Below, one piece after another: positions 1,944 to 4,262 of a stretch of 22,919 nucleotides of DNA. The notes below the pieces were generated by a model. The model had not been told where the DNA came from and did no database searches. It saw only the letters and a program-made list of their open reading frames with translations. The position numbers and the translations under genes are program-made. Numbering within the stretch: position 1 is the stretch's first letter; each line of letters starts with the position of its first letter. This stretch comes from Lachnospiraceae bacterium EP-SM-12S-S03 (GTDB taxonomy: Bacteria; Bacillota; Clostridia; Lachnospirales; Lachnospiraceae). The stretch spans positions 1 through 22,919 of the forward strand of contig JAJBSL010000034.1 in the NCBI GenBank assembly GCA_020540725.1, written 5' to 3'.

Positions 1944-1972
1944 TTGCAAAATTGACAACTTTCATATATACT
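1944..1972 (+). promoter_or_regulatory. Sigma-A-type promoter of the APC permease
   Basis: The -35 is TTGCAA at 1944-1949, the spacer is 17 bp, and the -10 is TATACT at 1967-1972. Transcription should start near 1979. The promoter is overlapped by the first of two palindromes, so bound protein would probably block RNA polymerase. Confidence 0.72.
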
Positions 1973-2018
1973 AAAGTTGTCAGAAAAGTAACAACTTTAA
2001 ATTTGATATAAGTTGTCA
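1953..2018. promoter_or_regulatory. Tandem palindromic operator before the APC permease
   Basis: Two copies of TGACAACTT-N12-AAGTTGTCA occupy 1953-1982 and 1989-2018. The first is perfect and its arms extend to 10 bp (1953-1962/1973-1982). The second has one mismatch (A at 1990). Their centres are 36 bp apart, and within each copy the half-sites are 21 bp apart, about two helical turns. The first copy covers the -10 and the second lies between the start of transcription and the ribosome site. This is what a dimeric or tetrameric repressor site looks like. Which protein binds is not shown; the nearby GntR/RCK_C regulator is the obvious candidate. Confidence 0.8.
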
Positions 2019-2033
2019 ATAGGAGGGAAGATT

Positions 2034-3488
2034 ATGAATGAGAAAAAATCGAAATTTGATAAAGTTTTGAGCAGCAAAGATGTATTTGTAATTGCCTTTG
2101 GAGCTATGATCGGATGGGGCTGGATTGTTATGGCAGGCGAATGGATCGATTATGGAGGAAGTGTAGGAGCCATGATTGCTTTTGCCATCGGAGGTTTTAT
2201 GGTATTGTTTGTCGGACTTACTTATGCAGAACTTACATCTGCCATGCCGGAATGCGGAGGAGAGCATATTTTTAGTCTTCGCGCATTTGGGAAAAACGGT
2301 TCTTTCATATGTACATGGGCAATTATTCTTGGATATGTTGGCGTGGTAGCTTTTGAGGCATGCGCATTTCCAACTGTAATCAAATATATTGCACCGTCTC
2401 TTGTAACGAAAGGATATATGTATACCATTGGCGGATTTGATGTGTATGCGTCCTGGGTAGCGATTGCAGTCGTAGCAGCAGTGATCATTACGTTTATTAA
2501 TTACAAAGGAGCAAAAACAGCGGCGGTTGTACAGACGATTCTGACAGTTGTGATCGGGCTTGTTGGCATCGCACTGATCGCCATGTCGGTTGTTCGAGGA
2601 GATGCAGCCAATCTAGACCCGTTGTTCGTAGAGGGCAATGAAATCGGCGGTGTGTTTAAGGTGGCAGTTATGACCCCGTTTATGTTGATGGGATTTGATG
2701 TGATACCACAGGCGGCGGAAGAGATTAATATACCGTTTAAGAAAATAGGGAAAATCATTATCTTTTCTATTCTGATGGCAGTTGCATGGTATGTGCTGAT
2801 TATTCTGGCGGTTTCGCTTATTATGACATCAGGAGAAATGAGTGCTTCTGAACTTGTGACAGCAGATGCTATGAAGAAAGCATATTTTAACAGTAATATT
2901 GCATCCATCATATGTATCATTGGTGGAATCATGGGAATTGTCACAAGCTGGAATTCTTTCTTTATGGGCGGATCAAGAGCGATCTCCGCACTTGCAGAAT
3001 CGCATATGGCGCCTGCATTTCTTGCGGATATTCACGAGAAGACAAAAACACCTACAAAATCAGTGCTTTTAGTAGGGCTGATTGCGGTGGCAGCTCCGTT
3101 TTTCGGAAAATCTATGATGACCTGGATCACAGATGCAGGAAGCTTTGCCGTATGTCTGGCATACATGATGGTTTCTGCTTCGTTTTTAAAACTTCGTAAG
3201 AGCGAACCGGATATGAATCGCCCGTATAAGGTGAAGAATGCAAAAATAGTCGGTGGCATGGCAGTACTGACTACAGCAATTATGTGTTCTTTGTATATTC
3301 TTCCGGGAGAGTCACAGCTTATTATGGAAGAATGGATCATCGTAGGAGGATGGATTTTACTGGGAATCGTGTTCTATATTTACGCGAAAAATTCTTATGG
3401 AGAAGTGTTTGGAACACGTAGTAAATTGATTTATGAAGATGTAAAAGAGACGAAACATAAATTCGCAAAAGCAATGGAAGTTCGTTGA
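2034..3488 (+). CDS. APC-superfamily amino acid/polyamine permease
   Basis: A 484-residue integral membrane protein with about twelve hydrophobic segments. It opens with the APC signature region GAMIGWGWIVMAG in the first membrane helix. TYAELTSAMPECGG and a later NSFFMGGSRAISALAES segment are also typical of amino acid-organocation antiporters and symporters. The substrate cannot be told from the sequence. ATG 2034 is chosen because AGGAGGG lies just upstream at 2021-2027; a TTG at 2013 is in frame but falls inside the second palindrome and has no ribosome site. The gene stands alone between the ddl terminator and the folate riboswitch promoter, which begins at its own stop codon. The tandem operator suggests strong repression under some condition. 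Confidence 0.9.
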   Translation: MNEKKSKFDKVLSSKDVFVIAFGAMIGWGWIVMAGEWIDYGGSVGAMIAFAIGGFMVLFVGLTYAELTSAMPECGGEHIFSLRAFGKNGSFICTWAIILGYVGVVAFEACAFPTVIKYIAPSLVTKGYMYTIGGFDVYASWVAIAVVAAVIITFINYKGAKTAAVVQTILTVVIGLVGIALIAMSVVRGDAANLDPLFVEGNEIGGVFKVAVMTPFMLMGFDVIPQAAEEINIPFKKIGKIIIFSILMAVAWYVLIILAVSLIMTSGEMSASELVTADAMKKAYFNSNIASIICIIGGIMGIVTSWNSFFMGGSRAISALAESHMAPAFLADIHEKTKTPTKSVLLVGLIAVAAPFFGKSMMTWITDAGSFAVCLAYMMVSASFLKLRKSEPDMNRPYKVKNAKIVGGMAVLTTAIMCSLYILPGESQLIMEEWIIVGGWILLGIVFYIYAKNSYGEVFGTRSKLIYEDVKETKHKFAKAMEVR

Positions 3489-3650: not shown

Positions 3651-3693
3651 ATACCTGCTATGCGTGGCGCAAGGACTACTGCAAAGGAGGTAT
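3651..3693 (+). promoter_or_regulatory. Ribosome-site sequestering stem of the THF riboswitch
   Basis: ATACCT at 3651-3656 is complementary to AGGTAT at 3688-3693, which includes half of the folT ribosome site AAAGGAGG (3683-3690). No terminator hairpin with a T-run lies between the aptamer and the gene. The simplest reading is control of translation initiation: ligand-bound RNA favours the stem that hides the ribosome site. Confidence 0.55.
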
Positions 3694-3698
3694 TTTTT

Positions 3699-4262
3699 AT
3701 GGGAAAAATGAAGGCACTCTTTGTAGACTCCTGGCATGAGTTAAGACATGTAAAAACGTTAGTAATGACAGCGATGTTTATTGCGATGGGAGTCGTATTG
3801 GGATTTTTCTTCTCAATACAGATTACAGATTCATTGAGACTGGGATTTTCGTTTATTGCAAATGAGATGACGGCTTTGTTGTTTGGACCGGTGGTAGGCG
3901 GTCTGATGGGTGGTGTGACAGATATTTTGAAGTTTATCATCAAGCCGACAGGACCGTTTAATTTCGGTTTTACATTCAATGCGATCCTGGGAGCAGTGAT
4001 TTACGGTATGATGCTTTACAAGAGGCCAGTAAATTTCAAACGGATTCTGGCAGCGAAAATCATTGTGTCTGTTATAGTGAATGTATTTTTCGGGACGCTG
4101 TGGCTGAGTATGATGTATGGCAAGGGATTTATTGCATTGCTTCCGCCGCGTGTGCTGAAACAGATCATATTCGTTCCAATCGAGAGTCTGATCTTCTATA
4201 TCGTTGCCAAGACTCTGTCGGAAACAAAAGTGCTGAGTATGATGAAAGCAAAAAGCAGATAA
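3699..4262 (+). CDS. folT: ECF transporter S component, folate-specific (FolT)
   Basis: A 187-residue membrane protein with five to six hydrophobic segments, the usual size of an ECF substrate-binding subunit. The stretch RLGFSFIANEMTALLFGPVVGG followed by DILKFIIKPTGPFNFGFTFNAILGA is characteristic of the folate S component. It works with the shared EcfA/EcfA'/EcfT module, encoded elsewhere, to import folate. ATG 3699 is selected by AAAGGAGG at 3683-3690; an ATG at 3660 is in frame but has no ribosome site and lies in the riboswitch expression platform. It is the first gene after the THF riboswitch and is followed by thyA (39 nt) and folA, so uptake, use and recycling of folate are encoded together. 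Confidence 0.93.
   Translation: MGKMKALFVDSWHELRHVKTLVMTAMFIAMGVVLGFFFSIQITDSLRLGFSFIANEMTALLFGPVVGGLMGGVTDILKFIIKPTGPFNFGFTFNAILGAVIYGMMLYKRPVNFKRILAAKIIVSVIVNVFFGTLWLSMMYGKGFIALLPPRVLKQIIFVPIESLIFYIVAKTLSETKVLSMMKAKSR

Follow-up and report, generated by a model that had tools for sequence, protein, structure and literature searches.

Organisation of the locus

The stretch of DNA analysed here, hereafter the window, comprises 22,919 nucleotides of the genome of Lachnospiraceae bacterium EP-SM-12S-S03. Its first part carries a gene for a putative transcriptional regulator, a ligase gene and a permease gene, the last of which is preceded by a promoter and two palindromes:

156-800, + strand: busR homologue of 214 aa, the proposed regulator, with a GntR wHTH and a TrkA_C (RCK_C) domain; two genes upstream of the permease
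816-1856, + strand: D-alanine--D-alanine ligase gene, separating busR from the permease unit (NF002528, 384 bits, cut-off 262)
1873-1914, + strand: intrinsic terminator closing the upstream unit (18-pair stem, T-run; shuffles mean 0.0)
1944-1949, + strand: -35 box TTGCAA of the permease promoter (consensus match, 17-bp spacer)
1953-1982: site 1, predicted BusR site, TGACAACTT-N12-AAGTTGTCA, which is GAC-N22-GTC (exact match)
1967-1972, + strand: -10 box TATACT, within site 1 (consensus match)
1989-2018: site 2, predicted BusR site, TAACAACTT-N12-AAGTTGTCA, which is AAC-N22-GTC (one mismatch)
2021-2027, + strand: ribosome-binding site AGGAGGG
2034-3488, + strand: APC-superfamily amino-acid permease of 484 aa, the putative controlled gene (ATG at 2034)

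A tRNA-Gly(GCC) at 3-74 directly precedes busR. Beyond the permease, a tetrahydrofolate riboswitch (RF01831, 3532-3633, 91 bits) is found directly upstream of a gene for a folate-type ECF transporter S component (3693-4262, TIGR04518).

The permease matches the Pfam families PF13520 (E 7e-38) and PF00324 (E 7e-30), and its best solved relatives are amino-acid transporters (e.g. 5oqt, E 5.7e-26). Its nearest named relatives are proteins of Cellulosilyticum and Clostridium annotated as 'APC family permease' (64-65% identical), and its score against TIGR00909 (183 bits) is below the cut-off of 557. As regards a compatible-solute transporter target for the operator, the gene found here is an APC-superfamily permease that resembles amino-acid transporters. 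The strong terminator (region 1868-1925 folding at -27.6 kcal/mol, z -8.6) parts the permease promoter from the upstream genes, and the permease appears to have a promoter of its own. This promoter, TTGCAA-17-TATACT (1944-1972), was called a good one in the first-pass annotation; no other sigma-70-like match occurs in 1840-2060, but the bare consensus match is no better than chance (one found; shuffles mean 0.8). From the position of the -10 box the permease transcript would start at about 1979.

The palindromes

The first-pass annotation had described two palindromes of the same geometry, with one base differing across their arms, and this description holds in full: 35/36 arm bases match across the pair, the single change lies in the left arm of site 2 (TAACAACTT), and the offset from site 1 to site 2 is 36 bp. 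This arm has AAC in place of the published GAC, which counts against BusR, although many sites near other busR genes likewise carry the TAACAACTT arm. The placement was also borne out, in that TATACT lies inside site 1 and site 2 reaches up to the ribosome-binding site, ending two bases before AGGAGGG. Three of the four half-sites across the pair read GAC, in inverted orientation and 22 bp apart. Within the window, matches to TGACAACTT-N12-AAGTTGTCA at up to three mismatches are confined to these two sites, whereas 100 dinucleotide shuffles of the window gave a mean of 0.01 matches and a pair in none. At 3.43 turns, the 36-bp offset brings the two sites into no obvious helical phase.

The first pass had recognised no standard operator in these palindromes. 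The half-site and the 22-bp spacing are, however, those of BusR, and a BusR gene lies in the same window. GAC-N22-GTC is the published BusR site; the Streptococcus agalactiae protein binds it in tetrameric form, and the spacing is set by the coiled coil of the tetramer (PMC8517857). The busA promoter of that organism has two BusR sites, one over the -35/-10 region and one nearer the start codon (PMC8517857), and two BusR footprints have been reported on it (PMC5919688).

A BusR homologue encoded in the window

The open reading frame at 156-800 encodes a BusR homologue, an assignment made from sequence comparison, with c-di-AMP binding and tetramer formation being putative. Its product matches GntR (PF00392, residues 13-75, E 1.2e-8) and TrkA_C (PF02080, residues 139-194, E 4.7e-10), and its best PDB match is S. 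agalactiae BusR itself (7b5t, E 7.8e-46, residues 8-206, ungapped full length) and not a FadR/HutC/MocR protein. The second match (7wjg, 'Putative transcriptional regulator (GntR family)', E 2.7e-41) is also ungapped; the next GntR protein of another kind, 3tqn, aligns over residues 11-113 only (E 4.4e-6). The linker (coiled coil) segment, 75-138, is 64 aa long in 79 of 80 homologues.

Residues are numbered here as in S. agalactiae BusR, by our reading two below the 7b5t chain positions. Among the DNA-contact positions R38, R53 and G72 are kept in the window protein, K54 is R, K36 is Y and G70 is N. The changes at K36 and G70 count against the assignment, as both residues are important to the S. 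agalactiae protein in binding DNA (PMC8517857); at position 36, Y is the commonest residue of the set (36/80 homologues). R38, R53, G72 and T165 are invariant across the 80 homologues, W159 is present in 76, and G180 and P181 in 78. In the window no BusR-like site precedes busR, which therefore gives no indication of autoregulation, in contrast to the divergent arrangement of one relative (G006) described below.

Taken together, the spacing, the layout and the linked regulator single out BusR as the best assignment. We consider it very probable that the palindromes form a tandem BusR operator, at which one c-di-AMP-activated tetramer per site would repress the permease. The ligand pocket bears on an alternative, which we regard as improbable, in which the operator is BusR's and its main signal is ionic strength or another ligand, not c-di-AMP. 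Eight of the 11 pocket residues are identical in the window protein (G154, N157, W159, A164, T165, I166, G180 and P181), the changes being I153V, V158F and H160Q. H160 contacts a phosphate of c-di-AMP, and its replacement by Q speaks for the alternative, as does the presence of R or K at position 157 in many distant BusR proteins; Q is, however, the commonest family residue at position 160 (41/80). DNA binding by Lactococcus lactis BusR is described as depending on ionic strength too, in vitro. Against this, a diadenylate cyclase domain was found in 6/6 relatives tested.

Conservation among Lachnospiraceae

The family set consisted of 299 genomes of Lachnospiraceae. A BusR match above 60 bits is present in 20/299, and any match at E <= 0.001 in 111/299, the weaker ones being mostly to the wHTH alone. 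With up to one mismatch allowed, the narrow pattern occurs in 6/299 genomes: G124, G001, G033 and G006, all BusR-positive, and G048 and G192. The reversed control of this pattern is commoner than the pattern itself (19/299), so the bare count is meaningless and only the place and the company of the sites carry weight. By company, the regulator that co-occurs with the motif in related genomes is BusR: the narrow pattern is found in 4/20 BusR-positive genomes vs 2/279 others (Fisher p 2e-4). At up to three mismatches, six genomes (G124, G001, G033, G006, G670 and G552) hold 17 sites vs 7 for the reversed control, which exceeds the pattern in G006 (1 vs 2) and G670 (1 vs 4).

By place, the closest counterpart is G124, in which busR, two sites 36 bp apart and placed as in the window, and a permease 88% identical to that of the window follow in this order, the ligase gene being absent between busR and permease. 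Ten genomes represent the genus of G124, and BusR is found in G124 only. In G006 a single site lies between a divergent permease (58% identical) and busR (34%). A perfect 8+8 core stands ahead of another APC-type permease in G001, Sellimonas caecigallum (Lachnospiraceae), the sole relative confirmed by contig scan; at the busR locus of this genome no site at up to three mismatches was found within 2 kb; its BusR is 73% identical. In G033 a site with two mismatches follows busR, ahead of a serine acetyltransferase gene. Sites with one and two mismatches (L179, G033 C132:55847, and L183, G001 C1:445696) also lie about 255 bp before a peptidase gene, read as the same in both genomes, which is possibly a further BusR target or a shared relic.

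The arms are thus conserved before the permease in part of its family, which at E <= 1e-70 occurs in 21/299 genomes: as a pair in G124 and as one site in G006. Scanned over 83,832 bases with up to four mismatches allowed, the other 19 loci yielded neither an N22 nor an N23 site. The contrast has a weak point, in that the permeases of these loci are 48-62% identical and perhaps not strict orthologues; several of them stand in long open frames or directly follow another gene, so that their promoters may be outside the 1.5 kb covered. In one of the 19 (G055), BusR is present on another contig. Permease homologues at L066-L069, L074, L078, L079 and L081 occupy open frames that greatly exceed the permease in length (883-989 aa) and may be fused to a second domain.

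Spacing of sites across the class

BusR at E <= 1e-20 is present in 66/391 class genomes. For the spacing scan we used 80 busR loci, made up of the window, 19 of 21 family matches (two partial ones, G270 and G206, being left out) and 60 of 66 further class matches (from 67 matches, with G001 counted once and six weak ones left out: G514, G469, G376 twice, G584 and G488). Non-coding DNA within 2 kb of busR was scanned at up to four mismatches in 18, with spacings from 12 to 41. Two adjacent spacings stand out, N22 with 26 sites in 21 loci and N23 with 46 sites in 35 loci, vs dinucleotide-shuffle means of 0.56 and 0.66 (maximum 3 in 50); N21 gave 3 sites and N24 none. N30 forms a secondary peak, with 26 sites spread over 23 loci. 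From the look of the sites we interpret it as a -35 box, TTGACAA, that stands some 8 bp beyond the left arm and is phased with the operator, and not as an extra spacing; all other spacings gave 10 sites or fewer. At up to three mismatches, 16 of the 80 loci have N22 only, 25 have N23 only, one is mixed and 38 are without a site.

The 36-bp offset of the window, which the first-pass annotation had treated as a fixed geometry, recurs in the tandem N22 pair of L043 and is not a general rule, since further N22 pairs are 34 (L047), 35 (L117) and 48 bp (L114) apart. Tandem N23 sites are offset by 48-51 bp in ten loci and by 36 bp in one (L170).

In a BusR tree, midpoint-rooted and with some long branches (that of G006 included), 15/16 N22 rows fall in one fully supported 27-row set alongside 3 N23 rows, and of the remaining 53 rows 23 are N23 and 1 is N22; L148, with mixed N23/N27 sites, was grouped with N23. 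The spacing labels require 5 changes on this tree (at least 4 of them forced by starred branches) vs 13 when shuffled. We newly propose, from predicted operators, that a deep BusR clade would use GAC-N23-GTC rather than the published N22, with linker length unchanged. N23 loci include L055, L062, L131, L134-L136, L141, L143-L145, L147, L155-L157, L161 and L168-L171.

The wider consensus GTNACAACTT-N12-AAGTTGTNAC occurs in 10/391 class genomes, and its reversed control in 2/391. BusR is present in 9/10 of the genomes with this consensus (p 6e-7), a test that is not fully independent because the consensus came partly from linked sites. Eight of the 14 sites concerned adjoin busR. The six elsewhere comprise five in BusR-positive genomes (G687, G635, G546 and two in G529) and one in a genome without BusR (G601). 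Four of those five precede genes read as transporters, without a family search: an OpuA-type ABC system (G687, about 230 bp away), an OpuC-type ABC system (G529), an amino-acid ABC system (G546) and an MFS sugar-type carrier (G635). The remaining site of the five is within an ORF.

These distributions argue against the view, which we hold very unlikely, that the palindromes belong to a different regulator and that the neighbouring BusR gene is coincidental. The ligase gene and the terminator do separate busR from the permease in the window, where BusR binding is a prediction, but the window sites have the exact BusR geometry, N22 and N23 sites cluster at busR genes, and the ligase-free order of G124 and the divergent arrangement of G006 place the sites directly between regulator and permease.

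Genes beside the sites

One cluster of proteins beside the sites consists of 18 betaine/proline-type ABC ATPases (representative over the proV cut-off), and others are DapB-like (6), AlaDh/PNT-like (5) and OpuAC-type binding proteins (3). The APC permease cluster holds three proteins, those of the window, G124 and G006; a further 14 site-adjacent proteins form two clusters whose representatives have no family match. Four targets were seen once each: a BCCT carrier (L149), a locus with a Na+/H+ exchanger (L054), a serine acetyltransferase (L046) and an amino-acid binding protein whose best match, cystine, is below cut-off (L055). Within 3 kb of busR, a relative of the window permease is found at 3/80 loci and a betaine-type ABC relative at 45/80, or 38/80 when weak ATPase-only matches are dropped.

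The DapB-like gene (representative over the TIGR00036 cut-off) adjoins N23 sites in L131, L133, L135, L147, L152 and L153. In most of these cases the sites separate the DapB-like gene from a divergently oriented busR, which hints that an amino-acid pathway gene is under BusR control. Tandem N23 sites also lie between busR and one conserved protein family in L134, L136, L143-L145, L148, L155, L157 and L169; the representative of these nine proteins has no Pfam or NCBIfam match at the thresholds used.

Discussion

Our analysis places two palindromes of BusR geometry over the promoter and leader of an amino-acid permease gene, in a window that also encodes the linked regulator, and finds them conserved in two relatives. 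Tetramer formation, activation by c-di-AMP and repression are attributed to the window protein by analogy with the characterised BusR proteins, and on this footing we propose a model for the control of the permease. A BusR tetramer from 156-800 would occupy each 30-bp site. One wHTH would read each of the outer half-sites, which are separated by three helical turns, and their distance would be set by the coiled coil of the tetramer. Binding of c-di-AMP to the RCK_C domains would free the wHTH and so raise the affinity for the operator; for the characterised protein, c-di-AMP lowers the operator KD from 577 to 5 nM (PMC8517857). BusR on site 1 would cover the -10 box and the start region and block access to the promoter, and BusR on site 2 would cover the early transcribed leader. 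Permease transcription would thus be off when c-di-AMP is high, and when it is low the permease would be made and its solute imported.

The duplication of the palindromes had been read in the first pass as pointing to cooperative binding by a multimeric repressor. The operator pair of a multimeric repressor is supported, the sites being conserved before the closest relatives of the permease, but the cooperative part is not. BusR is reported to bind as one tetramer per GAC-N22-GTC site, and the published EMSA of the two-site busA promoter is described as giving two complexes, 1:1 per site, on linear rather than looped DNA (PMC8517857); by analogy, cooperation between two tetramers would not be indicated at the window.

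Site 2 lies in the leader and adjoins the ribosome-binding site, which might suggest that the palindromes act as RNA, in a hairpin or attenuator. We hold this extremely unlikely and reject it, since the leader (1976-2036) is no more stably folded than its shuffles (z -0.36) and matches no Rfam family; near busR genes, moreover, it is the arms and their spacing that recur, and not a stem. Chance repeats in AT-rich DNA, for which the low complexity of AT-rich leaders and nothing else would speak, are refuted by the absence of a pair in the shuffles and by conservation in G124 and G006.

We tentatively put forward, with doubt slightly outweighing belief, that the BusR of Clostridia is a general c-di-AMP switch of solute and amino-acid uptake, with a ruler that can be reset from N22 to N23 without a change in length. 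Sites beside APC permeases belong to two distinct regions of the BusR tree, window/G124 being one and G006 the other, and to these permeases may be added the APC-type permease of G001, amino-acid ABC binding proteins (linked in G046, unlinked in G546), the BCCT carrier, the cation/proton exchanger locus and the serine acetyltransferase gene. Predictions of a role other than in betaine uptake have some precedent, because arsC, hom and thrB have been predicted as further BusR targets in L. lactis (PMC7051946). With its operator kept before the permease where busR is linked, the locus lends itself to a direct test of such targets in relatives of gut Lachnospiraceae. The motif could be used to chart c-di-AMP transcriptional regulons throughout Clostridia, and the division into N22 and N23 sites would put the ruler model to a clean test.

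Comparison with known systems

A study of c-di-AMP and BusR in Clostridioides difficile reportedly exists. Our literature search, which had most subscription papers outside its reach, returned no paper on BusR controlling an amino-acid permease; in one paper that it returned, the permease concerned was BcaP, in a CodY reference.

The window resembles the BusR-busAB system of S. agalactiae in regulator family, domain order and GAC-N22-GTC spacing (PMC8517857, PMC5919688), and likewise has two sites, over -35/-10 and nearer the start codon, before a solute transporter gene. The comparison of the sites themselves covers GAC and the spacing. The systems differ in their targets, a glycine-betaine ABC transporter in S. 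agalactiae and an APC permease here, and in linkage: busR and busAB are described as 655 kb apart in S. agalactiae, whereas the busR of the window is linked to the permease. In this respect the window is closer to the BusR-busA system of L. lactis, in which busR is upstream of the transporter gene and the TrkA_C domain binds c-di-AMP (PMC6108528, PMC10243994); there, however, a betaine transporter is controlled and busR is described as lying immediately upstream, with no ligase gene between (PMC6108528, PMC10243994).

The same N22 arms, in tandem between busR and the transporter gene, are found at other Clostridia loci in which busR accompanies an OpuA-type ABC system, at offsets of 34 (L047), 48 (L114) and 35 bp (L117) vs 36 bp in the window; the target at these three loci is a betaine-type ABC transporter, assigned by similarity only, unlike the permease of the window. 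The proposed mechanism is an ordinary one, of a known kind, and what is new is the amino-acid permease as a target class and the N23 group of predicted BusR operators.
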